From Natrinema sp. DC36 (GTDB lineage Archaea > Halobacteriota > Halobacteria > Halobacteriales > Natrialbaceae), in assembly GCF_020405225.1 (NCBI RefSeq), contig NZ_CP084473.1:248001-312000 (forward strand): a stretch of 64,000 bases of DNA, in the 5' to 3' direction. The position numbers and the translations under genes are program-made. This document shows positions 16,612 to 52,429 of the stretch, piece by piece. Numbering within the stretch: position 1 is the stretch's first letter; every line of letters starts with the position of its first letter. The notes under the pieces were generated by a model. That model had not been told where the DNA came from. It saw only the letters and a program-made list of their open reading frames with translations, and did no database searches.

Positions 16612-17253
16612 ATGCCAACTGATCTTGGTTGCAAGGTGGATGCAGCCGTAAAACGGTACGGTTTGGAATCCGCCGATCCGGTGTACGAATCGATCGACAG
16701 GGGGCTCCTCGCTCGGTGGAAAGGGTCCGACGACCGGACACCGATGGGGTACCGATCGCTCACGGAGTGGTTCAACAAACGCCTCCTCAAACGGGTGTAC
16801 GACGAGCACGGCCGCGATTCGCTGGGCGCTCGTGTCGATAGCGATTACGAGGCGCTACGCAGCGACGACGAACTCGTCCGAGAGGAGATGATCGAGAGCC
16901 TATCGGCAGACGGAATCGACGCCGAACGGGTTCTCGAGGACATGGTGTCGTATGGGACGATGAGAAACCATCTTCAGGAATGCCTCAACGGGGATAAAGC
17001 ACCGCAAACTGCCGAGACTGAGTGGGAACGCGAGAGCATCGAGGTAGCTCGTGAGGTCGCCAGGGAGAAAGCCGAACGAGCACTGTCGTCACTGGAGACG
17101 AAAGGTCAGATCGACGGCGTCGAATCATCGTCCATCGAGGTCCAGATCCAGCTGAGTTGCGAGTCCTGTCCGACTCGTATCCCGCTCGAAGTAGCGGTCA
17201 AGCAGGGCTACGTCTGTGAAACGCACGACCAAACACCCGCCGCCTCACACTGA
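16612..17253 (+). CDS. rdfA: Rod-determining factor RdfA family protein
   Basis: Protein of 213 residues recognised as the haloarchaeal RdfA family, in which the Haloferax volcanii member is needed for rod-shaped cells. It starts CKVDAAVKRYGL, followed by a helical segment (YRSLTEWFNKRLLKRVYDEHG) that looks DNA-binding. A long helix (EREREVAREKAE-like, near residues 140-165) comes next. The C-terminal CESCPTRI and CETH could form a zinc site. The gene is 2 bases from the downstream SMC-related gene, a pairing typical of the family, so they likely act together. It is leaderless from a TTTATC box, and two palindromes lie upstream. Molecular role unknown; DNA binding is an inference. Confidence 0.82.
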   Translation: MPTDLGCKVDAAVKRYGLESADPVYESIDRGLLARWKGSDDRTPMGYRSLTEWFNKRLLKRVYDEHGRDSLGARVDSDYEALRSDDELVREEMIESLSADGIDAERVLEDMVSYGTMRNHLQECLNGDKAPQTAETEWERESIEVAREVAREKAERALSSLETKGQIDGVESSSIEVQIQLSCESCPTRIPLEVAVKQGYVCETHDQTPAASH

Positions 17254-17255
17254 TC

Positions 17256-19140: not shown

Positions 19141-20286
19141 ATGGACACTGCGAACGAATACCCGGGGTCGAGGCTTCAGTTCGGCGAAGACGAAATCCGG
19201 ATCCAAGAAAACGAGATCGAGGAACTCCTCTCCGTTTCCCCGGATGACGCCTCCTCGCCAGAGACGTTGTCCGTCGCGAAAAACGTATTTCTGCCGCTGA
19301 CGACGGCATGCCGGTACACCTGTACGTATTGCACGTTTTTCGATCCTCCGGGCGAAGCATCGATAATGTCTATGGACGAGATCCGAACAGTGCTTCGTCA
19401 GGGCGTCCGGGCCGACTGCACGGAAGCCCTGTTTACGTTCGGCGATAAACCGAACGATCGGTATACCGAGATCCACCACCAACTCGACGAATGGGGATAC
19501 GGATCCATCCACGAGTATCTTCACCGGGCTTGCGAAGTCGCGTTGGAGGAGGGCATCCTCCCACATAGCAATCCCGGTGACCTCACCCACGATGAGGTGG
19601 AATATCTCTCATCGGTCAATGCGAGCATGGGTGTTATGTTAGAGACGACTGCTACTGTCGACGCTCACGCGGGTAAACGACAGAAGACCCCGGAACAGCG
19701 TCTCCGGACTATCCAGACCGCTGGTGAACTCGCCGTCCCGTTTACGACGGTTTTTCTCGTCGGACTCAGTGAGACGTGGCGCGATCGTGCAGAGAGTATA
19801 CTCGCGATCAAAGCGCTCCACGAGCGGTACGGTCACATTCAGGAAGTGATCGTACAGAACGTGGTCCCGAACGACCGGTCCGAGTTCGAGTCGCCATCGG
19901 TCGAAACCATGCGCCGTGTGACAGCGATGGCGAGATACGGGTTGCCGGATGCGATTGAACTCCAAGTACCACCGAACCTCTTCCCGGTCGATGAACTCCT
20001 CGACTGCGGTATCGGTGATTTCGGCGGTGTATCTCCGATCACGCAGGACCATATCAATCCGAATTACACGTGGCCGGAACTGCGGCGACTCGAAGAACTG
20101 GCGGATACTGCGGAGAAGCGCGTCGTTGAACGACTTCCGGTCTACGAACGGTATCTCGACGAGCAGCGAGAGATTCACGAGCCACAGCGCCTCGATCGAC
20201 CGTGGGTGACGGACCCGGTCCGAAACACCATTAGATCGAACGACCACCTCGCCCAATTGACCTCGACAGTGGATTCGCCGACGTGA
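19141..20286 (+). CDS. cofG: FO synthase subunit 1 (7,8-didemethyl-8-hydroxy-5-deazariboflavin synthase)
   Basis: Radical SAM enzyme of 381 residues that closes the deazaflavin ring after CofH. The cluster motif is CRYTCTYCTF (CxxxCxxC), with FTFGDKPNDRY, LPHSNPGDLTHDE, SMGVMLETTA, VPFTTVFLVGLSE and QNVVPNDRSEF following in family order. A TTTTATC box (19111-19117) about 27 bases before the ATG at 19141 supports this leaderless start; a longer frame begins upstream but crosses that promoter. It follows the SMC-related gene in the same direction with a 76-base gap and has its own promoter, so it need not be in the rdfA operon. Confidence 0.92.
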   Translation: MDTANEYPGSRLQFGEDEIRIQENEIEELLSVSPDDASSPETLSVAKNVFLPLTTACRYTCTYCTFFDPPGEASIMSMDEIRTVLRQGVRADCTEALFTFGDKPNDRYTEIHHQLDEWGYGSIHEYLHRACEVALEEGILPHSNPGDLTHDEVEYLSSVNASMGVMLETTATVDAHAGKRQKTPEQRLRTIQTAGELAVPFTTVFLVGLSETWRDRAESILAIKALHERYGHIQEVIVQNVVPNDRSEFESPSVETMRRVTAMARYGLPDAIELQVPPNLFPVDELLDCGIGDFGGVSPITQDHINPNYTWPELRRLEELADTAEKRVVERLPVYERYLDEQREIHEPQRLDRPWVTDPVRNTIRSNDHLAQLTSTVDSPT

Positions 20287-31112: not shown

Positions 31113-31187
31113 TCAACCTGTATTTTTCATTCCTGCTGCAATCCCCTTGACCGTCAGTCGGAGCGTTCGCTCTTCGATATCCGTTCG
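31113..31187 (-). pseudogene. Orphan 3' end of a second ppc gene
   Basis: On the minus strand this encodes RTDIEERTLRLTVKGIAAGM followed by KNTG and a stop, nearly the same as the end of ppc at 22564. About a fifth of the bases differ, mostly at third codon positions. Upstream codons bear no PEPC similarity. It is therefore a fragment of a diverged homologue, not a fresh duplicate. It lies just beyond the broken integrase. Confidence 0.78.
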
Positions 31188-31319
31188 GTGGTTCCGACCT
31201 CGATCTCGAGGCCAACTGAGGGGGGTTCGAACTCTTCTTCCGTAAGTTTCGACGGAGCGTTTCCACCAGAGGCTCAGAAATACCGCACAACTTAATCGAG
31301 AGACCTGCCAACTAGCAGT

Positions 31320-32147
31320 ATGGTTCGTCGAAGCGTGCTGTTCGCCCCCGGTGACAAACCCGCTCTCATGCGGAAAGCCGCCGAGAGCGACGCCGACGTC
31401 GTTGTCTTCGACCTCGAGGACGCAGTCGCCCCGGCAGACAAACAATGCGCACGCGAGGCCGTCCGAGAGGTGCTCGACGACGTCGAGTCCGACAGCGAAG
31501 TCTGCGTTCGCGTGAACCCGATCGGCATCTCGGCTGCGATCGACCTCGAGGTCGTTCTCGAGGGGCCCAACCCGGACAGCGTGATGCTCCCGAAGACGGA
31601 GGCAGCCGAGGACGTCCGAACGGTCGATCGGCTGCTCGAGGAACGCGACGCCGAGTTCCCGGTGCTGTCGCTCATCGAGTCCGCTGCTGGTGTCCTCCGG
31701 GCCGACGATATCGCGACGGCCGACGCGACAGATGCGTTGCTGTTCGGGGCGGAGGACCTCGCGGCAGACATCGGCGCAATTCGAACCAGCGAGGGAACGG
31801 AGGTGTTGTACGCCCGCGAGCGGACCGTGATCGCGGCCAGCGCCGCCGGCGTCGACGCGATCGACATCGTCTTCACCGATTACACAGACGTGGACGGACT
31901 TCGAGAGGAGACGACGTTTGCTGCGGGACTCGGTTACGACGGCAAAATGGCGATCCATCCCGACCAGGTCCCGATCATCAACGACGCGTTCACGCCAGAC
32001 GACGAGGACGTCGAGTGGGCCGAACGCGTGCTGGACGCGCAGGGTCAGACGGACGCGGGCGTGTTCGAAGTCGACGGCGAGATGATCGACGCTCCGCTCA
32101 TCGCACAGGCCGAGCGCATTGTGGAACGCGCCCGACAGGCGGAGTGA
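31320..32147 (+). CDS. CitE/HpcH-family CoA-ester lyase
   Basis: TIM-barrel lyase of 275 residues that cleaves or forms a beta-hydroxyacyl-CoA (malyl-, citramalyl- or HMG-CoA type). Signatures are RSVLFAPGDKPALMRKA, VVFDLEDAVAPADK (metal Glu/Asp), VRVNPIG, VMLPKTEAAEDV, LSLIESAAGVL, LLFGAEDLAADIG and GYDGKMAIHPDQV. The ATG at 31320 has an ACTTAATC box about 27 bases upstream, so it is leaderless. It faces the acyl-CoA carboxylase operon. With MaoC, carboxylase and dehydrogenase nearby, an HMG-CoA lyase role in leucine breakdown is plausible; citramalyl- or malyl-CoA lyase is the alternative. Confidence 0.87.
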   Translation: MVRRSVLFAPGDKPALMRKAAESDADVVVFDLEDAVAPADKQCAREAVREVLDDVESDSEVCVRVNPIGISAAIDLEVVLEGPNPDSVMLPKTEAAEDVRTVDRLLEERDAEFPVLSLIESAAGVLRADDIATADATDALLFGAEDLAADIGAIRTSEGTEVLYARERTVIAASAAGVDAIDIVFTDYTDVDGLREETTFAAGLGYDGKMAIHPDQVPIINDAFTPDDEDVEWAERVLDAQGQTDAGVFEVDGEMIDAPLIAQAERIVERARQAE

Positions 32148-32815: not shown

Positions 32816-33280
32816 CTACGTTTCGCGCTCTCGTTTCAGCGAGAGCGCCGTCCGATCGAACTCGCAGACCAGCAGCTCGTCAGGATAGTTCACTTTGAAC
32901 ACCTCGACGTGCATGATGACGATGCCGCGCTCGCCGTCGCTGGTCTCGCGCTTGTCTGTCACCATCGACTGGACGCGGATGGTGTCCCCGTGGTGAACGG
33001 GGTTCGGGTGCTCGACGTTGTCGTAGGATAGATTCGCGACGATGGTCCCGTCGGTCGTGTCCGGAATCGTGATCCCAACGGCTAGGCTCATCGTGTAAAG
33101 GCCGTTGACCAGCCGCTCGCCGAACTGCGTCTCCGAGGCGAACTCCGCGTCGAGGTGGAGCGGCTGCTGGTTCATCGTCATATCACAGAACTGCTGGTTG
33201 TCGCGCTCGCTGATTGTCCGTCGCTTCTCGTGTTCGATGGTCTCGCCGACCTCGAACTCCTCGTAGTAGCGTCCCGTCAC
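32816..33280 (-). CDS. MaoC-family enoyl-CoA hydratase
   Basis: Hot-dog-fold hydratase of 154 residues. It starts YYEEFEVGETIEHEKRRTIS, then has DNQQFCDMTMNQQPLHLDAE, in which the Asn/Gln and His correspond to the MaoC hydratase motif. GLYTMSLAVGITI and VHHGDTIRVQSMVTDKRET follow. It is the last gene of the five-gene operon starting at 39745, with its ATG 2 bases after the carboxylase gene. It could hydrate 3-methylglutaconyl-CoA, or mesaconyl- or itaconyl-CoA, ahead of the CitE-type lyase encoded on the opposite strand. Confidence 0.88.
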   Translation of the reverse strand: MTGRYYEEFEVGETIEHEKRRTISERDNQQFCDMTMNQQPLHLDAEFASETQFGERLVNGLYTMSLAVGITIPDTTDGTIVANLSYDNVEHPNPVHHGDTIRVQSMVTDKRETSDGERGIVIMHVEVFKVNYPDELLVCEFDRTALSLKRERET

Positions 33281-33282
33281 AG

Positions 33283-35061
33283 TCAGATGATGGTCCCGTG
33301 TTTCTTGTCGGGCAGGTCCTTCTCGACGCTCTCGTAGAACGTGAAGCGGTTGGTGAGTTCCTCGCGCAGCGAGCTCGGCGGGACGATCTCGTCGATAACG
33401 ACCTCGCTGGCCATCCGATGGATGTCGATGTCCTCGCGGTACTCCTCGCGGAGCTCCTGCTCCACACGCTCGCGCTCGTCGGGATCGTCGATCTCGGCGA
33501 GCTTGCGGGCGTAGACAGCGTTGATCGCCGCTTCGGGCCCCATAATGGCGATCTCGCCAGAGGGGAGGCCGATGACGCTTTCCGGATCGTAGGCCGGCCC
33601 CGACATCGCGTAGATGCCCGCACCGTAGGCCTTGCGTACGACGACTGACTGCTTGGGGACCGTCGCCGACGAGGTCGCGTATATCATCTTCTTGCCCTGC
33701 TCGAGGATGCCCTCTTTTTCGACCTGCGAGCCGGCCATGAAGCCAGGGGTGTCACAGAGGTAGAGGAGTGGGATGTCGTAGGCGTCACAGGTCCAGATGA
33801 ATTGGGCCGCCTTCTCCGCGGCGTCCGGGAAGATCGCGCCGGCCCGGTGGGCGGGCTGGTTGGCCACGATGCCGACCGGGCGGCCGTCGATCCGGGCGAA
33901 GGAAGTGATGATCTCCTTCCCGAACTGCGGTCGCAACTCGAGTGTCGACCCGGCGTCGACGACCCGGTTGATAACGTCGAACATGTCGTAGCCCTTGTTG
34001 GGCTCCTGCGGAACGATAGCGTCGATCTCCGCCGGGGAGTCGGATGGCACCCGTCCGTCTGTTCGGGGCGGCTTCTCGTCGCTGTTGTTCGGCAGGTAGC
34101 CGATGAGTTTCGCGACTAGTTCTCGGGCGTGCTCCTCGTCCTCGGCGATGAGGTCCGCGCTCCCGGAGTACTGCGCGTGCACGTCTGGACCGCCGAGTTC
34201 CTGTAAGTCGATCTGCTCGCCGGTGACCATCTCGACCATGCGCGGAGAGGCGATCGCCATTGCGCTCACGTCCCGGACCATGACGGTGAAGTCGGCGAAT
34301 ATGGGCGTGTAGGCCGCCCCGGCGATACAGGGCCCGTAGAGGACGCAGATCTGGGGAACCCGCCCGGAGAGCATCGAGTGGTTGTAGTAGTACTTCCCGA
34401 TTCCCTCGCGGTTCGCGAAGAAACCGGTCTGCTGGTCGATCCGACCGCCCGAGGAGTCCATCAGGTACAGCACCGGCTTACCGGTCTTCAGGGCGCGCTG
34501 TTGCATTCGAAGGAACTTTTCGACGCCCTTCGCGGCCATACTGCCGCGCTTGACCGTGTAGTCGTTGGCCATGAAGTGGACGTCTCGGCCTTCGAACTCG
34601 GCGGCGCCCGTGATGAGACCGTCGGCCGGCAGCCGGTCGTCGGTGTCCTCGTCGGCGTTCGCACCGCCCGGATGCCAGTCGTCGAACGCCGCGAACTTTC
34701 CGTCCTCGAAGAGGAAGTCGTCGCCGAACCAGAGGTCGAGCCGGTCCCGGACGAACAACTTCCCTTGCTCGGGCAGTTGCTCGCGGTACTTCTCCGGACC
34801 GCCCTCGAGGATCTCGTCGATCTCCTCGAGCAGTGCTTCCTCGCGGGCCGTCGGTCCGAGGTCCGCGTTCGGTTCGGTCCCTGTTGCCGCGTCGACCCCG
34901 CTGCCGGCCGTCGCGTCAGACCCACCGTCGTAGGACGCGCTGCCGAGTTCGTTGCCGCCGTCGGTGACGACGGTCACGTCGTCCCGGTACTGCGACGCCA
35001 TCGCCTCGGCGATCGCCCGTGCCTGTGCTTCGGTCGCGTCGTCTGAAATTCTGACTCGCAT
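33283..35061 (-). CDS. Acyl-CoA carboxylase carboxyltransferase (beta) subunit, with an N-terminal extension
   Basis: Carboxyltransferase of 592 residues that moves CO2 from biotin to an acyl-CoA. The core has GRDVHFMANDYTVKRGSMA, LMDSSGGRIDQQ, LYGPCIAGAAYTPIFADF, FGKEIITSFARIDGRPVG, CDTPGFMAGSQVEKEGI and RKAYGAGIYAMSG, closest in style to methylcrotonyl/propionyl-CoA carboxylase beta chains. Residues 1-30 (RVRISDDATEAQARAIAEAM) form an extra strand-helix unit resembling small epsilon-type subunits, joined by an acidic Gly-rich linker. A GTG at 35070 overlapping the upstream stop (GTGA) is an alternative start adding three residues. Confidence 0.92.
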   Translation of the reverse strand: MRVRISDDATEAQARAIAEAMASQYRDDVTVVTDGGNELGSASYDGGSDATAGSGVDAATGTEPNADLGPTAREEALLEEIDEILEGGPEKYREQLPEQGKLFVRDRLDLWFGDDFLFEDGKFAAFDDWHPGGANADEDTDDRLPADGLITGAAEFEGRDVHFMANDYTVKRGSMAAKGVEKFLRMQQRALKTGKPVLYLMDSSGGRIDQQTGFFANREGIGKYYYNHSMLSGRVPQICVLYGPCIAGAAYTPIFADFTVMVRDVSAMAIASPRMVEMVTGEQIDLQELGGPDVHAQYSGSADLIAEDEEHARELVAKLIGYLPNNSDEKPPRTDGRVPSDSPAEIDAIVPQEPNKGYDMFDVINRVVDAGSTLELRPQFGKEIITSFARIDGRPVGIVANQPAHRAGAIFPDAAEKAAQFIWTCDAYDIPLLYLCDTPGFMAGSQVEKEGILEQGKKMIYATSSATVPKQSVVVRKAYGAGIYAMSGPAYDPESVIGLPSGEIAIMGPEAAINAVYARKLAEIDDPDERERVEQELREEYREDIDIHRMASEVVIDEIVPPSSLREELTNRFTFYESVEKDLPDKKHGTII

Positions 35062-35066
35062 TGTGT

Positions 35067-36839
35067 TCACTCTAACGTAACGAGGGTGTCGCCCATGTCG
35101 ACGGAATCGCCCTCGGAAATCGGGACCGATTCGACCGTCCCGTCGCTGACGGCGACCACGTCGTTCTCCATCTTCATCGCCTCGAGCACGCAGACGACGT
35201 CACCGGCGGCGACTTCGTCGCCCGGTTCGACGGCGACCGAGAGAATAGTTCCCTGCATCTCGGCGGTGACGGCGTCGGCGGTGGCGACCTCGGGGGTCAC
35301 GTCCGATCCCGACTCACCGCCGGTAGCGGTCCCGCCGTCGGCGTTTCCGGCTGTCGTTTGCGGGACCCCGCCCTCGATGACGACGTTGAACCGACGGCCG
35401 TCGACCTCGACGGTGACCTCCGTGGTCTCGGTCCGCGTGCCATCGCCGCCGGTTGTCTCCGCGGGTCCCCATCGATCGACGGCCGCCTCGAGTGCATCGT
35501 CGTCGAGTTCCCGGTCTAGATATTTCGTGGTGTGCTCCCCGGCGACGAAGGTCTCGTCGTCGAGCATGAGTCGGTGGAACGGGATCGTCGTATGTACGCC
35601 CTCGACAGCGAAATGCTCGAGCGCGCGCTTCGAGCGCTCGAGGCAGTGCTCGCGGTCGTCGCCCCTGACGATCAGCTTCGCGATCATCGAGTCGTAGTCG
35701 CCACCGATCTCCGCGCCTTGCGCGACCGCGTGATCGAGGCGAACGCCGATACTCGCCGGCGGTCGGTAGGTCGTTAGTTGCCCGGGCGTGGGAGCGAAGT
35801 CGGCGGCCGGATTCTCGGCGTTGATGCGGTACTCGATCGCGTGGCCGTCGATTTCCACGTCATCCTGGGCGAAGGCGAGTTCCTCGCCGGCGGCGACCCG
35901 CAATTGCCACCGGACGATGTCGATACCGGTCACCTCCTCGCTGACGGTGTGTTCGACCTGAATGCGGGTGTTCACCTCCATGAAGTAGAACTCGCTGTCC
36001 TCGACCAGGAATTCGACGGTCCCGGCGTTCGCGTACCCGGCTTCGCGGACGCCCTGACGGGCGGCCTCGCCGATGTCCGTGCGCAACTCGGCGTCGAGCG
36101 CCGGGCTCGGAGCTTCCTCGATGACCTTCTGGTGACGGCGCTGGAGCGAACAGTCGCGCTCGCCGAGGTGCCGGACGTTTCCGTGGCAGTCGGCGATCAC
36201 CTGCACCTCGATGTGTTTGGGCGCCTCGAGATACTTCTCGACGTAGACCGAATCGTTGCCGAAGTACGCCTCGCCCTCGCGCCGCGCGCTTTCGAGGGCG
36301 TCTTCGACTTCGGCCTCGCTGCGGACGATCTTCATGCCGCGGCCGCCACCGCCGCCCTCGGCCTTGATGGCGATTGGGTAACCGAACTCGTCGCCAAGTT
36401 CGCGGACCTCTTCGGCGTCGTCGACCGGCTCGATCGTTCCGGGGACGACCGGAACGCCGGCCTCCTGCATGACTGACCGAGCCTTCGTCTTCTCGCCGAG
36501 CGTCTCCATGGCGTCGCTGGGCGGGCCGACCCACGTGACCCCGACCATCGATTCGACGCGGCGAGCGAAATCGGCGTTCTCCGCGAGGAACCCGTAGCCG
36601 GGGTGGATCGCGTCCGCGCCGGCTCGCTCGGCGATGTCGACGATCTCCGCCTGGTCGAGGTACGATTCGCTGGCGGGCGCCGGACCGACGTTGTACGCCT
36701 CGTCAGCGTACTCGACGTGGCCGGCGTCGCGGTCGGCGTCGCTGTAGACGGCCACCGTCTCGATGTCGAGTTCTTCGCATGCTGCCATCACGCGGACTGC
36801 AATTTCGCCGCGGTTCGCGACGAGTACTTTCTCGAACAT
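35067..36839 (-). CDS. Acyl-CoA carboxylase biotin carboxylase/biotin carrier (alpha) subunit
   Basis: Fusion of biotin carboxylase and biotin carrier in 590 residues. Biotin carboxylase: [51 protein letters not shown] (ATP-grasp glycine loop), [40 protein letters not shown]. After a Thr/Gly-rich linker the carrier domain ends in [15 protein letters not shown], with the biotinylated Lys near residue 555. It pairs with the beta subunit gene just downstream. The operon context (acyl-CoA dehydrogenase before, MaoC after) favours 3-methylcrotonyl-CoA as substrate, though propionyl- or acetyl-CoA cannot be excluded. Confidence 0.94.
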
Positions 36840-36841
36840 GG

Positions 36842-38008
36842 TCAGTAGGACTTGGGGAAACCGAGTTGCTGGCTGATGTGGTTGTACGCCATCTGCTGGG
36901 AGACCGGCGCCAGGCGCGTGAGGTTGATCTCACGCCACCAGCGCTCGACGTCGTACTCCGTCGCGTAGCCCCAGCCGCCGAAGGCCTGCATCGACTGCTT
37001 GACCGCTTCGATCCCGGCGCTGACGGCCGTCGCTTTCGCGACGTTGGTCTCGTAGCCACAGTCCTTCCCGTGATCGTAGAGCCAGGCGGCTTTCTCGCGC
37101 ATGAGCGCAGCCGTTTCCATCCGTGCGTAGGCCTGCGCGATGGGGAACGAGACGGCCTGGTGGCTTCCGACCGGGGCACCGAACACCTCGCGGTCGTTGG
37201 CATATTCGATAGCGGTATCGGCGGCCAGTTTTCCGATCCCCGTTCCGGCCGCGGCGAAGCCGATGCGCTCGGGGTTCAACATGTCGACGAGTGCCCACCA
37301 GCCTTCGTCTTCTCCCCCGAGCAGGTTCTCTTCGGGCACGCGAACGTCCTTGATGAACACTTCGCAGGACTTCGAATAATTGATGCCGTGTTTGGGGATC
37401 GGAGAGACGTCGATCCCGGGATCGTCCATATCGACGATGAACAGGCTGATACCGTCGGTGCCACGGTCGACCTCATCGCGCGGGGTCGTCCGTGTGACGA
37501 GGATCATATTGTCCGCTCGATCGGCGAAGGTGATCCACGCCTTGTTCCCGTTGAGAACGTACTCGTCACCGTCCTTCTCGGCGCGCGTGGCGACGTTCAG
37601 CGTGTTCGTTCCCGCTTCGGGCTCGGTGATGCCGATCGAAAAGTTTCGCTCACCGGTGGCGATGTCGGACAGGTACCGCTCCTTCTGGGCCTCGGTGCCG
37701 TTCTCGCGGATGCCGACGGCGGCCATGCCCCCGGTGAGAACCAGATACCAGGTCCCGGCCATGCCACAGCCTTCGGCACAGAGCGTTTCCATCGCTAAGC
37801 CCATCTCCTGCATGCCCATGCCGGCGCCATCGTACTCCTCCGGGACCAACAGTCCGTGAAAGCCGGCCTCCGCGAGTTCGTCCCAGAACCCCTGGGCGAA
37901 TTCGCCCTCTTCTTCTTTCTCTCGCCAGTACTCCGGCCCGTATTCGGCCGCGACCGCTTCCGCGGTCGACCGGATCATCGAACGTTCGTCGGTAGACTCG
38001 AAATTCAT
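36842..38008 (-). CDS. Acyl-CoA dehydrogenase
   Basis: FAD-dependent dehydrogenase of 388 residues. Family segments are [34 protein letters not shown] (FAD/substrate loop), [68 protein letters not shown] and [21 protein letters not shown] with the C-terminal catalytic region. I start at the ATG at 38008 ([19 protein letters not shown]). It lies 2 bases from the carboxylase gene and 54 after the synthetase gene, so all form one operon. An isovaleryl-CoA dehydrogenase role is inferred from context, not from residues. Confidence 0.9.
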
Positions 38009-38062: not shown

Positions 38063-39745
38063 TTACGGCGACGCCTCGGCCTCTTCCTCTGCATCGTCCC
38101 GCAGTTCGGTGCGACGAATCTTCCCGGTGACCGTCTTGGGAAGTTCCTCGCGGAACTCGATTTCGCGGGGGTACTCGTGGGCCGACAACTCGTCGCGCAC
38201 GTGATTCCTGATGTCCTCCTTGAGATCCTCGGAGGGTGTCGCGCCCTCGCTGGGCACGATGTAGGCCTTCACGATGTTGCCCCGCTCCTGGTGGGACTTG
38301 GGCACGACGGCCGCCTCGGCGACAGCCTCGTGTTCACCCAGCGAACTCTCGACCTCGAACGGGCCGATCCGGTAGCCCGACGAGAGAATGACGTCGTCGG
38401 CTCGCCCCTCGAACCAGAAGTAGCCGTCCTCGTCTTTGTGGGCGAGGTCACCCGAGAGGTACCACTCACCGTCGGACCCGTCGACGAAACACGACGCAGT
38501 CTTTTCGGGCTTCTGCCAGTATTCGGCGAAGAAACAGGGATAGTCTCCCCGCTGGGCGATCTCACCCGTCTCGCCGGGCTCGAGCACTTCGCCGGTTTCG
38601 GGGTCGACGATGTCGGCCTCGATTCCGGGAAGCGGCTTGCCCATCGAGCCAGGTCGGAGCTCCATCGTCGGGTAGTTGTTGATGATCATGTTGCCCGTCT
38701 CCGTCTGGCCGTACGTGTCGAGGATGGTGACGCCGAGTTCGTCCTCGCCCCACTCGACGACGCCGGCACTGAGCGGCTCGCCGATCGAGAGGGCGTGGCG
38801 TAGGTCGAGGTCGACGTCCGCCAGAACCTCCTCTTTCTCCCGCAGCATCCGGTACGCCGTCGGGACCGAGAACAGGACGGTGATCGGGTACTCGTCGAGC
38901 AGGTCGGCCCACTCCTTCGGGTCGAACTCGCCTTCGTACGTGAACAGCGAGGCCCCCCAGAACCAGGCTCCGAGCGTGTTGATCGCGCCCGTCAGCCAGC
39001 CCAGGTCGCCGGTACTCCAGTAGAGGTCACCGGGTTGGAGGTCAACGGCGTACTTCTGGGTCGCGGCGACGCCGGCCACCCAGCGCTGTTTGTGAAGGAC
39101 GCCTTTCGCCAGGCCGGTCGTCCCCGACGTGTAGTACAGCAAGGCGTCGTCCTCGCCGCCGGTCTCAGCGGCGTCGTACGCCGTTCTCGCGCCGTCGAGC
39201 GCCGTATTGAACATGACGTCGTCGGTTGGCGCACCGCCGCCGCGATCGACGGTGATGACGTGTTCGACCGATGGCGCGTCGTCGAGCGCGTCTTCGACGG
39301 TGTCGCGGTTGTCGGTCGTCGTCACGACGACTTTCGCCTCACAGTCATCGAGTCGGTAGGAAATGCCGTCCGGACCGAAGCGCTCGTTGACGCTTCCCCA
39401 GACGGCGCCCCGCTTGAGCGTCCCGATCAGCGCCACGTAGTGTTCCGGAATCCGTGGCATGTACGAGAACACGCGGTCGCCCTGCTCGACTCCCAGATCC
39501 TCGAGGACGTTCGCGAACTGGCTCGAGCGGTCTGCCAGCTCCCAGAACGTCAGCTTTGTGAGCTCCCCGTCGGTATCGACCTGGTAGAGCGCGACCTTCT
39601 CACGGTCAGTAGCGTGTCGGTCCGCGACCTCGTATGCGATGTTGAGTTCCCCCGGTGCGTCCCAGTCGGCTTCCGCGTAGATGTCTTCCCACGAGAACTG
39701 CTCCCGTTCAGCCTCGTAGTCGGACAGGTTGTGGCTGGATACCAT
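38063..39745 (-). CDS. Acyl-CoA synthetase (AMP-forming, acetyl/medium-chain type)
   Basis: ANL-superfamily ligase of 560 residues that activates a carboxylic acid with ATP and CoA. Motifs: LLYYTSGTTGLAKGVLH (P-loop), WSTGDLGWLTG, ILDTYGQTETGNMI (A5), GEWYLSGDLAHKDEDGYFWF (A7), GRADDVILSSGYRIGPFEVE (A8) and the C-terminal PKTVTGKIRRTELR with the catalytic Lys. First gene of the five-gene operon. A TTATGTA box about 27 bases upstream supports the leaderless ATG at 39745, and a 18-base palindrome lies further up. Acetoacetate, isovalerate or a similar short acid is the likely substrate. Confidence 0.9.
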   Translation of the reverse strand: MVSSHNLSDYEAEREQFSWEDIYAEADWDAPGELNIAYEVADRHATDREKVALYQVDTDGELTKLTFWELADRSSQFANVLEDLGVEQGDRVFSYMPRIPEHYVALIGTLKRGAVWGSVNERFGPDGISYRLDDCEAKVVVTTTDNRDTVEDALDDAPSVEHVITVDRGGGAPTDDVMFNTALDGARTAYDAAETGGEDDALLYYTSGTTGLAKGVLHKQRWVAGVAATQKYAVDLQPGDLYWSTGDLGWLTGAINTLGAWFWGASLFTYEGEFDPKEWADLLDEYPITVLFSVPTAYRMLREKEEVLADVDLDLRHALSIGEPLSAGVVEWGEDELGVTILDTYGQTETGNMIINNYPTMELRPGSMGKPLPGIEADIVDPETGEVLEPGETGEIAQRGDYPCFFAEYWQKPEKTASCFVDGSDGEWYLSGDLAHKDEDGYFWFEGRADDVILSSGYRIGPFEVESSLGEHEAVAEAAVVPKSHQERGNIVKAYIVPSEGATPSEDLKEDIRNHVRDELSAHEYPREIEFREELPKTVTGKIRRTELRDDAEEEAEASP

Positions 39746-39935: not shown

Positions 39936-41324
39936 TCAGTCACCGTTTCCGGCCGCCGCATCGTGACGGTCGTTCCACGTCTTCCGGGCGGCGTCGCGAA
40001 CAGACACCGGAAACGACCGTTCGAACGAGACCCGCGGGGCGATGTAGGAATCCTCCCAACGGGGGTCCCAAGCCGCGTTCACGTACAGCCGGGCGCCAGT
40101 CGTTCCATCCCGACGGTACCGTGGCCGTTTCGCTGCTGGCGCGGACGGCTCGCTGAAAATCCAGTCCCGAGACGGATGGGCCTTCACCCAGATATCGCCG
40201 AGAACGCGTCCGAAATCGTGCGGCGAGACGCCCTCGTCGACGATGATGACGGTATCGAACAGCGACGAGAACGTAAAGAGGAGGTTAGCGAGCTGCCATT
40301 CGAAGCCGGCGTAGAGGATATTCGTAGCGACGAAGCAGATCCCGAGTTCGGCCTCGGCCGGCAACAGAACCCACTCGATGGGTGAGATGCCCCAGTAATC
40401 GTTGACGCGACGGTACAACATCGCCGCCGTCGCCAGTCCCGTGAGTTGCAGGTCGTCCGCAAGCGGTCGTCCGACGGGCGAGAACGGGATCACCGGATCA
40501 TCGGTCGCGATCACCCGCTCGACGGAGAGGGAAAGCGGCGTGCTCGCGACGCCGTGTTCCCACGCTTCGCGCCGATCCGACTGGAAGTCGGGGTGCCGAT
40601 CCGCGACCGTCGTCTCGACGACTATCTCCGTCGCACTCGGAACGAGGCCGCCGTTCGTCGGAACCAACGGGACATCGTCCGCGACGCCGCAGGCCTGCAC
40701 CGGCACGTCGACACACCCCGTCACGGCGAGCAGGTAGGCGGTCGCGACGGCCGCCGGCGGCACGCCGAGCGCGATCGAGAGCGTTCCGTCGTCGTCCAGC
40801 AGCGACGACAGCGCGGCCGGCGTGCGCACGCGGAGCTTATCGTCGCTGATGACGGAGCCGTGGATCGGTGCCCAGTGTGACCCCTCCGATGACGATACCG
40901 ACGCGACGCCCAACGTCAACGAAGGCCAGACGTCTTCGGTTCCCCGCGGCAGGTTCAGATCCTGGACGTTATCGACGGTTCGCGACGCTGTCTGTCCGGC
41001 GTACGTCGGGTTCGCGTCGCCGCCGGACGGGCCGAGTCCCATAATCGTATCGAGTACGGTGACGAACGATGCATCGGGATTCAGGCCGAAGCCCAGCGCC
41101 AACCGCGACCACGGCTTCGATTCCCGGCGTTGCATCTGATCCGGGCCGCTGAACGTCCCGCTTGCGAGATCGACGCTGTCGGCTCGTCGGTATCGGATTG
41201 CCGGCCCGCTCGCACGAAGGGCTTCCGCCGCGACGACGTCCGGAGGTACGTCGGCGGACTCGTCGATGGTTATCAGATCACCGTCGCTCGCCAGCCCTCG
41301 CAGGTACTGTGCGAACGGGATCAT
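39936..41324 (-). CDS. UbiD-family protein, divergent paralogue
   Basis: Protein of 462 residues related to prenylated-FMN decarboxylases. It starts MIPFAQYLRGLASDGDLITI and has ESKPWSRLALGFG, HWAPIHGSVISDDKLRVR, LSIALGVPPAAVATAYLLAV and FPVSVRDAARKTW-like segments in UbiD order. In its partner at 41321 the catalytic EGPFGDYFGY loop is clear, but here the corresponding stretch reads DPVIPFSPVGRPLADD, without the Glu and Glu/Asp pair. It may be a non-catalytic or specialised subunit. Its ATG overlaps the partner's stop by 4 bases (ATGA), which indicates coupled translation and probably a heteromer. Confidence 0.8.
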   Translation of the reverse strand: MIPFAQYLRGLASDGDLITIDESADVPPDVVAAEALRASGPAIRYRRADSVDLASGTFSGPDQMQRRESKPWSRLALGFGLNPDASFVTVLDTIMGLGPSGGDANPTYAGQTASRTVDNVQDLNLPRGTEDVWPSLTLGVASVSSSEGSHWAPIHGSVISDDKLRVRTPAALSSLLDDDGTLSIALGVPPAAVATAYLLAVTGCVDVPVQACGVADDVPLVPTNGGLVPSATEIVVETTVADRHPDFQSDRREAWEHGVASTPLSLSVERVIATDDPVIPFSPVGRPLADDLQLTGLATAAMLYRRVNDYWGISPIEWVLLPAEAELGICFVATNILYAGFEWQLANLLFTFSSLFDTVIIVDEGVSPHDFGRVLGDIWVKAHPSRDWIFSEPSAPAAKRPRYRRDGTTGARLYVNAAWDPRWEDSYIAPRVSFERSFPVSVRDAARKTWNDRHDAAAGNGD

Positions 41325-42826
41325 CGCGCCCCATAACCTCCCCACTCGAGGAGATCGAACGCCTCCGACGAGACGCCCGCATTGACGAGGAGTTCCTGTG
41401 CTCGCCTTCGCAGTTCTTCGTCTCCGGCACTGTCCCCCGCTGGACGATCACTGGTGGCGTCGATGTATGCTTTTGCGGTCTTGGCTTTCGAGGTGCCGAC
41501 ATCGGCACTGCCCTTCTCGTCGGGTGTCTGGTAGATGTTGAGCGGCACCTTCGGCATGCGCTCGACGCCGAACTGGTGGAAGTCAGCGTCCGGGTCGGCC
41601 TCGAGCGCGATCGCAGTCAGCACGGCGCGCGGGTCGAGCGGGTCGACATCGGCGTCGACGAATACGAAGAAATCGATGTGGAGCATCCCCCAGGTGGTGA
41701 AGATGAAGTTCGCCAGTTCGTGGAGGTAGCCCGGATACGGGCGATCCGTTGCGATGACCCAGACGGTCTGGGAGGTAAACCGCCACGGGACGGCCAGCGC
41801 GACGTCGAAGCCGGCCGCCTGCAGGCCGAGGGTCGCGTCGGGGCCGGCCGCGGCCGTCTGGAGCGTGCTGCTCGAGTTCTGGCCGTAGCCGACGCCGGTT
41901 CCCTCGACGCAAAACGGTACTCGCGGTTCGCCTCGACGGGTTATCGCGTCGACCGCGAACACGGGCATGGACCGTCGCGGGCCGTTCATATAGCCGAAGT
42001 AATCGCCGAACGGCCCCTCGTCGAGCCGCTCGTTCGGGAGCACGCGGCCCTCGAGCACCAGCTCAGCCGTCGCTGGGACGTAGAGGTCGTTCGTCTCGCA
42101 CGAGACGAGGTCGACCGGACCGTCTTTCAGTCCGCCCGCGAAGGCAGCCTCGCTTCGGCCGGTCGGAATCCACATCTCCGTACTGCACTGGACGGCCGGT
42201 TCGGTACCGAGGACGACCGCGACCGGCATCGGCTCCTCGCGCGGTTCGTACTCGTAATAGTACAGGTTCGGAGCCTGCTCGCCCGCCAGAAAGAGGAGGC
42301 TCGCGAGGTCGTCGTCGTGGATCATCATTCGGTGGCTCGACCAGTGGCCCCACCGGGTCTTCGGGTCCGGTCCGACGACGGTGTGGAGGTTCGAGTACCG
42401 CCCGCCGTCGCCCCGGTGGATGTACGGCCAGGGAATCGACAGGAGGTCGACATCCGTCCCGGTGTGGACGACATCCTTGCAGGGGGCCGCGTCCCGGTCG
42501 ACTATCTGCGGCTCGCGGGGCGATCGGAGCCGGTCGATGACCGCTTCGTAGTACTCCGCTCCGGACAGGCCAGCCGGCAGTTCGAACACCCGGGCGAGGT
42601 GTTCCCACGGCCGACATCGCGGACCGCGGTACGGATCGCCAACGAGCGCCGCGTCGATCGTCGTTTCTTCGACCGACTCGAAGATCGGGACCTCACCGTC
42701 AGTCCGGTTAGCGAGGGTCGTGACCGCGCTCGCCTCGAGGTCCCACGACACCAACTCGGCGAACGAAACGAGGGCGTCCTCGTCCTCGAGAAGTCGGAGA
42801 TACTCCCGAAATGAATCGGCCGACAT
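41321..42826 (-). CDS. UbiD-family decarboxylase
   Basis: Protein of 501 residues in the prenylated-FMN-dependent (de)carboxylase family, which acts on aromatic or alpha,beta-unsaturated acids. Family elements are RPWEHLARVFELP, SIPWPYIHRGDGGRYSNLHT, RWGHWSSHRMMIHD (the Arg-rich cofactor region), PVAVVLGTEPAVQC, NERLDEGPFGDYFGYMNGPR (catalytic Glu and Asp), TWGMLHIDFFVFVDADVDP and RMPKVPLNIYQTPDEKG near the C-terminus. Middle gene of a three-gene operon. No UbiX-type flavin prenyltransferase gene is in the window, so the cofactor would come from elsewhere. Confidence 0.9.
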   Translation of the reverse strand: MSADSFREYLRLLEDEDALVSFAELVSWDLEASAVTTLANRTDGEVPIFESVEETTIDAALVGDPYRGPRCRPWEHLARVFELPAGLSGAEYYEAVIDRLRSPREPQIVDRDAAPCKDVVHTGTDVDLLSIPWPYIHRGDGGRYSNLHTVVGPDPKTRWGHWSSHRMMIHDDDLASLLFLAGEQAPNLYYYEYEPREEPMPVAVVLGTEPAVQCSTEMWIPTGRSEAAFAGGLKDGPVDLVSCETNDLYVPATAELVLEGRVLPNERLDEGPFGDYFGYMNGPRRSMPVFAVDAITRRGEPRVPFCVEGTGVGYGQNSSSTLQTAAAGPDATLGLQAAGFDVALAVPWRFTSQTVWVIATDRPYPGYLHELANFIFTTWGMLHIDFFVFVDADVDPLDPRAVLTAIALEADPDADFHQFGVERMPKVPLNIYQTPDEKGSADVGTSKAKTAKAYIDATSDRPAGDSAGDEELRRRAQELLVNAGVSSEAFDLLEWGGYGAR

Positions 42827-42828
42827 GA

Positions 42829-43323
42829 CTATTCCTCGTCCGTGAGGGCACGACGGAGCGGGTCGGCCTCGAACTCGGTTCGGACGTCTTCGTACGTTTC
42901 CAGCAGTGCGGGTCGATTCTCAGCGAGGTACTGAAACGAGATTTCCCGGAGTGCCTCGGCCGTCGAATCGTATTGGCCCGATTCGACGAGATAGCGTAGA
43001 ATCACTTTGAGGTCGTCTGATCGAGTGTTGACGATGTTCGAGGTCGTTTCCTGCTCGCCCGCGAGCCGACGGAGGCGGTCTTCGTCGATTCCCTCCGAGG
43101 CGATTTCGTCTATGAGTTCGACGTACCGTTCCTCGCTGACGTCCTCGTGCGGTCCGGTAACGACCCGTAGCGGCCGCGGATCGGTGAGCTCATGGGGATC
43201 GTGGGCGATTCGAACCCGCGCTTCGAAGATCCGCTTCGTCTCGGCATCGGTGATCTGGAGCGTCGTCTCCGTCAGGTCCTCGTCGGGCAGATGTTCCTCT
43301 GCTGTGATGTAATGGTTCGACAT
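42829..43323 (-). CDS. Unknown acidic protein, first gene of the UbiD operon
   Basis: Protein of 164 residues that I do not recognise. The first half has strands (YITAEEHLPDEDLTETTLQI, KRIFEARVRIA), the second is helical (LKVILRYLVESGQYDSTAEA, LREISFQYLAENRPALLETY). The start is fixed by GGAGG five bases before the ATG at 43323. It ends 2 bases before the UbiD-type decarboxylase, so it is probably a third subunit or an accessory protein of that enzyme. The helical part resembles a ribbon-helix-helix tail, which could also mean a regulator. Confidence 0.72.
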   Translation of the reverse strand: MSNHYITAEEHLPDEDLTETTLQITDAETKRIFEARVRIAHDPHELTDPRPLRVVTGPHEDVSEERYVELIDEIASEGIDEDRLRRLAGEQETTSNIVNTRSDDLKVILRYLVESGQYDSTAEALREISFQYLAENRPALLETYEDVRTEFEADPLRRALTDEE

Positions 43324-43527
43324 GGCCTCCACTGGATACGTAGCCTGTGTCTGGTGATTGCACACGCCAGTCGGACGTTTCTACTCTCCACCCTTCCTAA
43401 AGAGTGGGGTTATTTCCTGACTGTTTCCGTTCCTCAAGCACGAACTCAGCGACGATATCACTGGGTAGACTGAACTATTTAACGTTCTGTACGACTCGTG
43501 TATTGCGTACTTGTGTATTGCGTTTGC

Positions 43528-44387
43528 CTATCGCTGCCGAAGCCGCATTGGGAGGCCGTTCTTTGTCTGCGTAGTGATCTCCGGTTCGATTGTGATCGTC
43601 GGGTCCCCATCAGCCCATTCGAGAGTCCACTGTTGACCGATCGTCGCCAGCACCAGCGTCGCCTCGAGGCGAGCAAACTCCCGACCGATACACGTCCGAC
43701 GACCACAACCGAATGGGATGAACGCGTGGTCAGTGAGTTCCTCTTCGAAATCATCTGTCCACCGGTCGGGCCGGAATGACAGGGATCGGCGTAGAACCGC
43801 TCATCACGATGAGTCGAGATGATGGACAGATGAACTTCCTCCTCGGCCGGAATCCAGTAGCCATCGACCTGGACATCTCGAGTTGTCTCCCGGGGAATCG
43901 TATGGATGGGGGGATACAGTCGGAGGGGCTCGGTGACGATTCGGTTTGTGAGGTCGAGGTTTGCAATGTCTTCAGGTGTCGGTGGTTCATCTTCCAGAAC
44001 AGCATCGAGTACATCGTGGAACGCTTGCCGAATATCAGAATTTATCGCCAGCGAGTACCAGGCGAATCCGAGCGCAGCGGCGGTGGTTTCATATTCAGCA
44101 AAGGTCATCGTGAGCATCTGGTCTTCGACTTCCTCCGTGCTCAGACGGTCTTGGCCACTTGCCTCGCGTGCCTTGTGGAGTTTCGATAAGAGCGTCTCTT
44201 GCTGGAGGTCGTTCGGCTGTGAGCTGTTCGCTCGTTCCGAATCTGCACTATACTCCGCAAGCAGTTGTCGAACTTCCGTTCGGAGACGCTCTACTGAGTT
44301 GCTGAACTTCCGGTTCGACGACATCCGTTGGGTACAATTCCTCGATTTTGGCGCGGTAGTGTTCGGCCCACGGGCGATTCTGTTCAT
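43528..44387 (-). pseudogene. Cytochrome P450, truncated and frameshifted
   Basis: Heme monooxygenase remnant. The I-helix reads FAEYETTAAALGFAW, the K-helix EPLRLYPPIHTIPRET keeps the ExxR-type pair, and YWIPAEEEVHLSIISTHRDE follows. A frameshift near 43790 leads into FRPDRWTDDF and the heme loop FIPFGCGRRTCIGREFA with the ligand Cys, ending LPMRLRQR. The N-terminal 150-200 residues are absent; the sequence before about 44330 is unrelated. It lies at the left edge of the conjugative region and may have been cut by its arrival. Confidence 0.82.
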
Positions 44388-49138: not shown

Positions 49139-52100
49139 ATGAGTACGAATACAGCTGATAGCGAGTATAGTACGAGAAAGATCCATCAGTCATTGGGCGG
49201 TACTACGGCGTTCTTCCGAGGGTACACGATCGGCGAACTCATGCTGTTTCTCGCGGTGGCGTTCGTCACTGTCGTTGCAGCGACGTTCGTCCCTGCTGCA
49301 CTGACGATCCCGGTACTGGGCTTCGGAATTATGCTCACGATCCTCCTATTCTTGCTCCATAAGGTGAAGCCCAGATACCTATGGCTCACCGAGTGGCTCG
49401 CTGCCCGGTTCGGCTGGGCGCTCAAGAACAAGGAGTATACCCACGGTGGTGAGGACAACAGCGAGGTTCGGTATCTGACTCGCTTACAACGGGTATATCC
49501 CCACGCTGTCGAGCGAACGGATGGTGCACTCGTCGGAGCGATGAAAGTCGAGCCAGCGAACATGGCCCTCGAGGACGACGATGCATGGGCGAAGGCTGTC
49601 CAGTCGCTTTCTGAGTTCGTTAACTCGACTGTGGACTTCCCGGTGAAGATCTATATCACCAGCCGAGAGGTCGACGATGACGATGTTATCCGTTCACACC
49701 AGGAACGACTCGGTGACGCTGATGTTCGGTCACGACCGGTCTTGAAGCGGCTTCTCGAGGAATACGTCACCGCGAACACGACCGAAAGCGGAGATATCGA
49801 TTCAGAGACGACAACGATTCGCGAGTACTACCTCATCACTGCAGTGAACGATGATGATGTCGAACAATTCGACAAGACGGGTGATAGCGTCCTCGCCTAT
49901 CTCGCAGAGATGCCCATGGTAGGTCGATTCTTCGACCGGTTCCAGACCGATGATCTGACTGACCCCGAGCGTGAGCGGCTCAAAGAAGAGCAACTCGAGG
50001 CACGACTCACACAGCTCCGACGCAGCGGCTCGTCGCTCTACCGGTGTTCAATTAGTCCGGTCGACGCATACGACCTCGCTCGGATCACGAAGGAGTACTG
50101 GTCGTGTCAGCCCGAGGAGTACGCTGATATCACGGATTCACTCGGCACGTTCCCGGTCGTCTCCCACGGGATTAGCGATGGTGTTCCAGCAACGCCCGAC
50201 CCTGATGATGTCCTCGATGCAATGGACGAACCGACCAGTACGCCGGAATCGGCCTCGGACGATCGTACTGAAGATACTATCGACGAGGATCTCTCGAGTT
50301 CCTCCGGCGATCGATTGCCAGATACGTCGACGATGCACCAGTCGGTTCTCGCCCCGGCGACGGTCGATTGGGAGACGACCTACGCCGTGATCAACGACGA
50401 GGCGTACGTCCGTACATTCTGGGTCGAACAGTTCCCTGAGGAACCGTCGGATGGCCTCCTCGAGCGTCTGTTGCTCGAGACCGACCTTCAGACGGATATC
50501 AGCATCCACCTCGACCCGTTCGACAGCCAGTCGGCCCAAGACATGATGGCGGACTGGATCTCGGATTTGAAGATCAATCAGCACGACTCGAACAGCCTCC
50601 AATCCGAAGATCTTCAGGACGATATCGATCAGGCGAAATACATGCGGTCGCTTGTTCGCGCGAACAAAGCGTCGTTTTACCGCGGTGGCGTGTTCATTCG
50701 CCTCGCTGCTGACAGCGAGCAAGCGCTCGACAATCAGACGACTCGCTTGCGGTCGATCGTCAAGGATGCCCCGGCGAACTGTACGCTCAAGGTTGCGAGC
50801 CGGTGGCAGGAACGTGGCCTCGCAACAGTGTCACCGCTCGGGACGAACGAACTCGGTCGCGATCGGATGTCCACACTGACGAATCAGGCGATCGGCGCGA
50901 TGTTCCCGTTCTCGTCGAACTACCAGATGATGGACGGCGGCATCGAGTATGGCTATCACGGTCACAACGGCTCCCCCATCCGAATCAACCCGTGGGAACT
51001 CGAGACTGGGCATAGCGAACTCGTTGTCGGAATGCCGGGTGCTGGGAAGACGTTCGGCGACATCATGCGCCACCTTCGGATGATGAAGCGGCACAACGAC
51101 ACGATGCTCGTCCTCGTCGATCCAGTCGGCGGCTTCCGTGGTATCGCGGACGCTTTGAACGCGAAAACGATTACCGTCGGCGGCGACACGAAGCTGAACC
51201 CGCTCGAGATCCGAGAGACGCCACAGCACGTCCTCGAGTCCAACGGTGGCATCTCTCCACTCTCAGCGAAGAAAGACGAGGTCTACGCCATTCTCGAGAA
51301 CTTCCTCGACGCTCGTGATATCGAACTCGGAGCCGAGACTGGTGTCCTCTCGTATGTCATTGACGAGGCCTACCGACTAGCGGGGATCGTCGAGGATGAT
51401 GTCTCGACGCATACCTCGAAGAACTCACCGACGATGCAGGACGTCCATCAGATTCTCTGTGATATCGCCGAGAATCCAGATGAGCACAATATTGCGGCAT
51501 CCGAATCCGCTCGCGAGCGTGCCGCACAATATGCAGACGAACTCGCAATCGCGTTTCAGCCCTTCCGAGAGGGCGGTGCCTACGAAAATCTCTCACACCG
51601 CTCGGAGATCAATATCCTCGAGGGCGACAACAAGGTCATCTACATCGATCTCGGTCAGATCGAGGGCAGCGCATCAGGAATCGACCGCCAGACGTTCCTG
51701 ATGCAACTCCTGCTCTCGACGATCTATCAACAGGCGAAGAACACCCAACGGAACGTCGAAATCGCGATCGACGAAGCGCACTACCTCTTCGAGGACCAGG
51801 CGAACCTGGACTTTCTCGAGACGGCGTTCCGGCACCAGCGCCATGCTGGCCTTCGAATGGTTCTCCTCTCTCAGACAGCCCAAGAGTTCTACGAAACCGA
51901 GCAGGCCGAGAAAATTATCGGGATGTGTCCAATCAAGGTCTTTCACAAACTGCCCGATTTGGACGACGAGACAGCCGACAAAATCGGCCTCACAGAGGAA
52001 CAACGTCGGTACGTTCGACGGGCTGATGCAGGCAAGGAAGACCTCGGCTACAGTCAATCGCTTGTTCGCGTCGAAGAACACGGAACGTATCCGCTGCACG

Positions 52101-52429
52101 TCGTCGCCGACGACTTCGAGAAGCGCGTCATCAACTACGAACCCGACGACCGGGAATTCATCCAACAGGCGATTAGCGACCAGCCTGAAGAACTCGTTGA
52201 CTTCGAACGGTTCGTGGAAAATGAGGCGCGGATGAACGCACTCACCAGTCGCTATGGACTCTGTGAGGCAGAGGCGACTCGAATTCTCGATAATGGCTTC
52301 ACTGAAGACGAGATCATCGAGGCGATAGTCGCGACCGCGCGACAGAGCGACACGGCGGAGACATCTGCTCTCGCCGATAGCGGTGACGATGCAATACGGT
52401 TCGACGAGGAGGTGAATGACGATGTTTAG
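49139..52429 (+). CDS. virB4: VirB4-family T4SS ATPase with fused N-terminal membrane (VirB3/PrgI-like) domain
   Basis: Large ATPase of 1096 residues. Residues 25-80 (FFRGYTIGELMLFLAVAFVT and a second hydrophobic segment) resemble PrgI/VirB3, here joined to the ATPase. The VirB4 N-domain follows (LTRLQRVYPHAVERTDGALV), with an acidic linker at 345-400. Walker A is VGMPGAGKTFGDIM near 630. Walker B is VEIAIDEAHYLF near 872, followed by RHQRHAGLRMVLLSQTAQEF. It powers pilus assembly and substrate transfer at the membrane. It overlaps the next gene by 14 bases. Confidence 0.92.
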   Translation: MSTNTADSEYSTRKIHQSLGGTTAFFRGYTIGELMLFLAVAFVTVVAATFVPAALTIPVLGFGIMLTILLFLLHKVKPRYLWLTEWLAARFGWALKNKEYTHGGEDNSEVRYLTRLQRVYPHAVERTDGALVGAMKVEPANMALEDDDAWAKAVQSLSEFVNSTVDFPVKIYITSREVDDDDVIRSHQERLGDADVRSRPVLKRLLEEYVTANTTESGDIDSETTTIREYYLITAVNDDDVEQFDKTGDSVLAYLAEMPMVGRFFDRFQTDDLTDPERERLKEEQLEARLTQLRRSGSSLYRCSISPVDAYDLARITKEYWSCQPEEYADITDSLGTFPVVSHGISDGVPATPDPDDVLDAMDEPTSTPESASDDRTEDTIDEDLSSSSGDRLPDTSTMHQSVLAPATVDWETTYAVINDEAYVRTFWVEQFPEEPSDGLLERLLLETDLQTDISIHLDPFDSQSAQDMMADWISDLKINQHDSNSLQSEDLQDDIDQAKYMRSLVRANKASFYRGGVFIRLAADSEQALDNQTTRLRSIVKDAPANCTLKVASRWQERGLATVSPLGTNELGRDRMSTLTNQAIGAMFPFSSNYQMMDGGIEYGYHGHNGSPIRINPWELETGHSELVVGMPGAGKTFGDIMRHLRMMKRHNDTMLVLVDPVGGFRGIADALNAKTITVGGDTKLNPLEIRETPQHVLESNGGISPLSAKKDEVYAILENFLDARDIELGAETGVLSYVIDEAYRLAGIVEDDVSTHTSKNSPTMQDVHQILCDIAENPDEHNIAASESARERAAQYADELAIAFQPFREGGAYENLSHRSEINILEGDNKVIYIDLGQIEGSASGIDRQTFLMQLLLSTIYQQAKNTQRNVEIAIDEAHYLFEDQANLDFLETAFRHQRHAGLRMVLLSQTAQEFYETEQAEKIIGMCPIKVFHKLPDLDDETADKIGLTEEQRRYVRRADAGKEDLGYSQSLVRVEEHGTYPLHVVADDFEKRVINYEPDDREFIQQAISDQPEELVDFERFVENEARMNALTSRYGLCEAEATRILDNGFTEDEIIEAIVATARQSDTAETSALADSGDDAIRFDEEVNDDV

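Follow-up and report, generated by a model that had tools for sequence, protein, structure and literature searches.

A conserved haloarchaeal UbiD cassette with a degenerate second subunit, found in genomes that nearly always lack UbiX

UbiX makes prenylated flavin mononucleotide (prenyl-FMN, prFMN) for the enzymes of the UbiD family and is, to our knowledge, the only known enzyme producing this cofactor. The subject of this work is a three-gene cassette encoding a small protein, a catalytic-type UbiD and a degenerate UbiD-fold subunit, here called pUbiD. It lies in a 64-kb stretch of DNA (the window, meaning the whole of the sequence analysed) on a 320-kb contig of the haloarchaeon Natrinema sp. 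DC36. With a probability of roughly 0.55, the cassette would specify a heteromeric UbiD-type (de)carboxylase special to haloarchaea, feeding coenzyme A (CoA)-ester catabolism with a cofactor not made by UbiX; the complex, the reaction and the cofactor are what we infer. A conserved UbiD subfamily without UbiX would imply either a hidden second route of prFMN synthesis or UbiD chemistry without prFMN and, if true, either outcome would change the annotation and engineering of UbiD enzymes and could be tested in culturable haloarchaea.

The prFMN-dependent UbiDs Fdc1, HudA (PA0254), E. coli UbiD, HmfF and VdcC share with the cassette UbiD the fold, the R-Xn-E-X4-(E/D) motif and the metal-ligand Glu. 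The cassette departs from them in three respects: UbiX is absent from 76 of 78 cassette genomes, the metal-binding His is replaced by Gln (33/33), and a degenerate second UbiD is added. Comparable in composition, as far as the available portions of the cited papers describe them, are the phenylphosphate carboxylase of Thauera and the phenylphosphoamidate carboxylase of Desulfatiglans, which like the cassette combine two UbiD-like subunits with small subunits (described as alpha, beta, gamma and delta; PMC7500099). For the aniline version, FMN was reported to be sufficient, and that organism has a ubiX-like gene (PMC7500099). However, pUbiD matches the beta model only weakly (E 0.0029) and the genome context differs, with no phosphorylating synthase among the conserved cassette neighbors that were assigned. 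Nor are the phenylphosphate carboxylase models reached, since the 501-residue UbiD scores 143.9 bits on TIGR02723 (cut-off 564.6) and the 462-residue pUbiD 16 bits on TIGR02724 (cut-off 468.95).

The hydroxyarylic acid decarboxylases VdcBCD and LpdBCD, again from the available text, also join a UbiD to a small partner; the small subunit D, LpdD, is a prFMNH2-binding chaperone (PMC10865409). Unlike these systems, the cassette has no UbiX component, carries the additional pUbiD and holds a small protein outside the NCBIfam families. The 501-residue protein does not reach the VdcC model NF041204 either (164 against 650 bits). AbcA and AbcD are both members of the UbiD family. As a presumed anaerobic benzene carboxylase made of two gene products, described in the part available as AbcA and a partner (PMC5852087), they resemble the cassette, although their setting is anaerobic and bacterial. 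In the literature listings and selected passages covered on UbiX-less UbiDs and haloarchaeal pathways no description of the cassette was found, subscription papers being largely outside the search. Annotated records name both large proteins 'UbiD family decarboxylase', with 'domain-containing protein' added in one record, and the small one 'hypothetical protein'.

Architecture and conservation of the cassette

The three genes lie on the minus strand. The first, from an ATG start at 42829-43323, encodes the small protein of 164 residues, which belongs to no known family. The catalytic-type UbiD of 501 residues (41321-42826, ATG start) begins 2 bases past the stop of the small gene in the list of open reading frames (ORFs), and pUbiD follows at 39936-41324, its ATG (41324-41322) overlapping the TGA of the UbiD gene (41323-41321) as ATGA. 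pUbiD is taken here as 462 residues from this ATG, the ORF list giving a longer form of 469 residues from a GTG. The layout reported in a first-pass annotation of this DNA, with its 2-base gap, ATGA overlap and protein lengths, is thus borne out by the ORF list, as is its observation that EGPFGDYFGY occurs in the 501-residue protein and is absent from the 462-residue one.

Among 100 relatives, the pUbiD query gives strong matches (E <=4e-94) in 33 genomes, its own included; weaker matches raise the tally to 40 genomes but fall on other UbiDs. UbiD adjoins pUbiD in all 35 loci inspected (34 and the window's own) and the small gene is found at 33 of them, the misses being L049 and L061, the latter cut by a contig end. 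The trio order, for which the first-pass annotation had suggested a synteny search, is therefore conserved in haloarchaea. When 84,980 species were scanned with an alignment of pUbiD, 65 named loci emerged, every one haloarchaeal, and pUbiD sought outside haloarchaea matched 6 of 148 genomes of the phylum, all of them members of the same order.

Counting only gene pairs of the named loci that were delimited by the gene caller, the 4-base overlap of UbiD and pUbiD recurs in 49 of 60 and the gap from the small gene to UbiD falls between -4 and +4 in 54 of 62. Because the order is conserved across haloarchaea and the overlap recurs, the arrangement is more than chance. Trees of the 57 complete loci show an identical split into two clades, A and B, for all three proteins (support 1.0), and the pairwise distances among the three correlate at 0.88-0.94, a figure that partly reflects shared species history. 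One haloarchaeal genome (G248, C1:1003407-1004951) carries a broken pUbiD in two pieces with one in-frame TGA.

The small protein has no NCBIfam match at E 0.1. A known fold for it was sought and none matched confidently: there was no significant family or fold match and no confident structural match, including to the Pba3/4-like fold of the LpdD type. Its AlphaFold model has a beta-rich N-terminal half and a helical C-terminal half, with a predicted local distance difference test score (pLDDT) of 78.4 and a predicted template modeling score (pTM) of 0.51.

Active sites of the UbiD-fold proteins and cofactor supply

The 501-residue protein carries all three UbiD Pfam domains over cut-off (PF01977 at 3e-62, UbiD_C and UbiD_N). 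Its active site was compared by aligning 33 cassette UbiDs with 7 ordinary haloarchaeal ones (those available as loci among more that were detected, one family contributing four), 12 of 35 pUbiDs and two PDB sequences. Glu or Asp is required at both acid positions of the R-Xn-E-X4-(E/D) network, according to the available part of PMC5818171. All 33 cassette UbiDs retain the complete Arg-Glu-Asp network (R, E277 and D282 in Fdc1 columns), as Arg166, Glu270 and Asp275 in the window. Hardly any variation is seen in EGPFGDYFGY or in the UbiD core.

The metal site differs. In A. niger Fdc1 numbering its ligands are 168, 191 and 233. The Glu of the E233 column is kept in all 33 cassette UbiDs, but the metal-binding His is Gln in every one (Gln184 in the window), so that the His/Glu pair of prFMN-dependent UbiDs is incomplete throughout. 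Ordinary haloarchaeal UbiDs all keep this His (7/7), as do, in the printed alignments, the crystallized E. coli UbiD, HmfF, VdcC, Fdc and HudA. Immediately before the His position every cassette protein (33/33) carries Glu, and the N168 position holds Asn in only 1 of 33, against 7 of 7 ordinary UbiDs. In the portions available, PMC3650080 gives the metal ligands as His188 and Glu229 with Ser165 in the second sphere, a residue taken here as that of the Asn column; HudA activity requires Mn2+ and K+, networked with the prFMN phosphate (PMC7976604), and in AnInD the phosphate is coordinated by two metal ions (PMC8988006).

pUbiD is the degenerate member. It passes only UbiD_C in Pfam (1.8e-11), PF01977 remaining under cut-off (0.0056). 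Its predicted structure (pLDDT 73.9, pTM 0.77, the C-terminal part poorly predicted) finds HudA as its best Foldseek match (E 1.5e-21) and aligns with Fdc1 over 392 residues (VIA Z 31.6, root-mean-square deviation 3.8), so that, judged by the model, pUbiD is a full UbiD fold. EGPFG(E/D) is missing from the window pUbiD and appears in none of the 26 pUbiD sequences printed from the first alignment, and no row among the 12 pUbiDs tabulated out of 35 has a complete Arg-Glu-Glu/Asp network. In those 12, the residue aligned with the network Arg is His or Tyr for clade A members but remains Arg for those of clade B, and the window protein has His at the R173 column of Fdc1. To call it a UbiD without the catalytic loop, as the first-pass annotation did, is right about the loop and understates the degeneration, because in the window pUbiD the Arg position is lost too. 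A restored Glu-Arg-Glu site, which would have spoken against that annotation, is not seen at the sequence level; all 35 pUbiDs share a Trp-Glu pair close to where the loop is missing, and this pair retains an acid there. The many invariant residues of pUbiD include Trp255-Glu256, Lys381, His383, Asp387-Trp388 and Asp420.

The second departure concerns UbiX. In the window's own genome, the UbiX model TIGR00421 has no match, and a search for a more distant UbiX among proteins of the flavoprotein family PF02441 (Pfam) brought up a single protein, of 390 residues, which is CoaBC (TIGR00521, 334 bits, cut-off 219.7). Across the 100 relatives, the genomes with ordinary UbiD and those with UbiX are one identical set of 14, and UbiX is found in 1 of the 33 cassette genomes, the exception (G023) also having two ordinary UbiDs. 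This amounts to UbiX in 0 of 32 cassette-only against 13 of 13 ordinary-only genomes (Fisher p = 1.4e-11, with related genomes treated as independent). It is also absent from 44 of 45 further cassette genomes, L077 being left out of this check, whereas it was detected in 9 of 9 control genomes with UbiD; in Haloferax volcanii, a further control, UbiD and UbiX both gave no match. Since cassette genomes are nearly always without UbiX, the cassette enzyme probably relies on a different cofactor supply. In the UbiX-less genomes it is close to certain that the cofactor is not made by UbiX, unless prFMN is taken up. The separation from UbiX, together with the altered cofactor-metal site, points to a variant of the UbiD family rather than a routine tandem duplication.

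The proposed enzyme and competing explanations

The most likely arrangement, judged from the genes, is a hetero-oligomer of UbiD and pUbiD with the network in UbiD only and the small protein as an accessory. The UbiD subunit would carry the Arg-Glu-Asp network for acid-base catalysis and carboxylate binding, and pUbiD, having kept the fold without the network, may assist it as a partner, structurally or allosterically. For the small protein, an accessory part in assembly or as a cofactor subunit is proposed, a regulatory role being less likely. Such an enzyme would add CO2 to, or remove it from, an unsaturated or aromatic acid exchanged with the neighboring CoA ligase, possibly, in clade A, along a route through short branched acyl-CoAs that includes a biotin carboxylase and, in clade B, along an aryl-CoA or Paa-like oxygenase route. 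Its cofactor may be a flavin that UbiX has not prenylated, or else prFMN supplied by another enzyme, and would be bound without the customary link from His through metal to phosphate. The narrower version, a UbiX-independent haloarchaeal branch in which a UbiD/pUbiD/small protein complex keeps the acid-base network and uses plain FMN, another flavin or none, with no His-metal anchor, is conceivable at somewhat below even odds. The first-pass annotation had already put forward a new, hetero-oligomeric subtype of UbiD enzyme, and this gains indirect support from the conserved order, the translational coupling, the congruent A|B split, the correlated distances and the fold of pUbiD; the main novelty, namely the absence of UbiX and the substituted metal ligand of the catalytic-type subunit, had been overlooked.

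Several points weigh against the heteromeric, UbiX-independent enzyme. The intact R-E-D motif matches that of a working prFMN enzyme, one cassette genome (G123, locus L106) has UbiX, and the UbiD of locus L086 is the one keeping Asn at N168. The UbiX models would miss a flavin prenyltransferase that is not homologous to UbiX. In a cytosol rich in KCl, K+ could still be bound by Gln and Glu, although the ordinary UbiDs of haloarchaea retain the His. Conserved synteny and gene overlap fall short of proving that a complex forms. The clade A cassette is set apart from the ligase by a gap. The substrate assignment is a guess, the contexts of clades A and B sharing only CoA-ligase chemistry, and of the candidate substrates (branched or aromatic 2-oxo acids, isobutene or arene carboxylation) none is favored by the evidence.

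Ordinary prFMN chemistry, with a haloarchaeal prenyltransferase unrelated to UbiX supplying a usual UbiD, would fit the network intact in 33 of 33 proteins and the UbiD domains over Pfam cut-off. It is nonetheless unlikely: a standard prFMN site does not predict loss of the metal-binding His, the PF02441 search in the window's own genome returned CoaBC only, and the ordinary UbiDs of the relatives are always accompanied by UbiX (14/14 genomes). The missing UbiX and the substituted phosphate-metal site would also suit a UbiD fold recruited for a flavin-free reaction, such as isomerization of a carboxylate or a lyase step acting on one, in which Arg-Glu-Asp would serve simply for acid-base catalysis. 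This explanation appears rather improbable, as the near invariance of EGPFGDYFGY and the core suggests the same pocket chemistry.

Other alternatives concern the partners. The enzyme could consist of UbiD and pUbiD only, the small protein being a DNA-binding autoregulator with a ribbon-helix-helix-like C-terminal half. Its C-terminal profile does bring up ParD/CopG antitoxins in 4 of 7 weak PDB rows (E 0.28-0.86), and ParD is among the weak matches of 3 of 39 members (best E 0.015); the ParD/CopG matches are non-significant, unrelated proteins score equally, and AlphaFold shows long helices and no strand in that half, which leaves the proposal doubtful. That UbiD and pUbiD are two separate enzymes, pUbiD being an independent paralogue whose invariant C-terminal residues form a new site, would account for the many invariant residues, but pUbiD is never found apart from UbiD (35/35 loci) and the 4-base overlap recurs, making this very improbable.

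Genomic settings of the cassette and other features of the window

Clade A comprises 36 of the 65 named loci and the window. Its context is that of a CoA ligase, an acyl-CoA dehydrogenase and a biotin-dependent carboxylase; biotin carboxylase is present in all 37 loci and the carboxyltransferase in all except one, cut by a contig end. In the window, an AMP-forming acyl-CoA ligase similar to AcsA/MbcS (38063-39745, minus strand) comes after a gap of ~190 bp from pUbiD, so it possibly has its own promoter. Downstream on the same strand are the acyl-CoA dehydrogenase (36842-38008), a biotin carboxylase with a biotin carrier domain (35067-36839), the carboxyltransferase subunit of acyl-CoA carboxylase (33283-35061) and a MaoC-type hydratase (32816-33280), whose nearest NCBIfam model is RipB/Ich (98.7 bits, cut-off of 340 not reached). 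A CitE/RipC-like C-C lyase lies on the plus strand at 31335-32147 (215 bits, cut-off of 375 not reached), and such a lyase is near the cassette in 10 loci, the window counted. Upstream of the cassette, a cytochrome P450 remnant (43482-44387) covers only positions 208-380 of a 462-position Pfam model.

Of the 29 clade B loci, 28 carry a PaaD-like gene; PaaA/B/C-like genes and enoyl-CoA hydratases also belong to the setting. At many loci a metallo-beta-lactamase-fold gene directly follows pUbiD, and aldehyde dehydrogenase, thiolase and ligase are often added; the ligase that was tested scores above the cut-off for the benzoate-CoA ligase family (397 bits against 375). Proper phenylacetate catabolism was rejected for this clade by these tests, because the PaaA/B/C/D-like proteins score under the curated Paa cut-offs. 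On a Haloterrigena turkmenica plasmid (L184, 5410-10262), formate dehydrogenase genes lie on the upstream side of the clade B cluster; when aryl-CoA rings are cleaved by the Box-type pathway, formate is among the products.

Elsewhere in the window, a VirB4/TraC-like conjugation ATPase at 49193-52429, below curated cut-offs, suggests a conjugative element beside the cassette. A 78-nt repeat, 77% identical, is found at 22568-22645, the 3' end of what we take to be a phosphoenolpyruvate (PEP) carboxylase-like gene, and at 31117-31194, beside the CitE-like gene and fragments presumed to be integrase-like; it may be what remains of a second PEP carboxylase-like gene that has been lost. Coenzyme F420 genes include npdG (2342-3010), CofH (PRK07360, 10193-11503) and CofG (19141-20286), all over NCBIfam cut-offs, and a LLM/Mer-like oxidoreductase below them (7509-8546); no link of this set to the cassette was seen. 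Finally, an archaea-specific SMC-related protein (ASRP, 486 bits) is encoded with a partner gene at 16636-19064, and a gene of the partner's family, f34, stands with an ORF of ~592 residues just upstream of the cassette at loci L102, L108 and L110.

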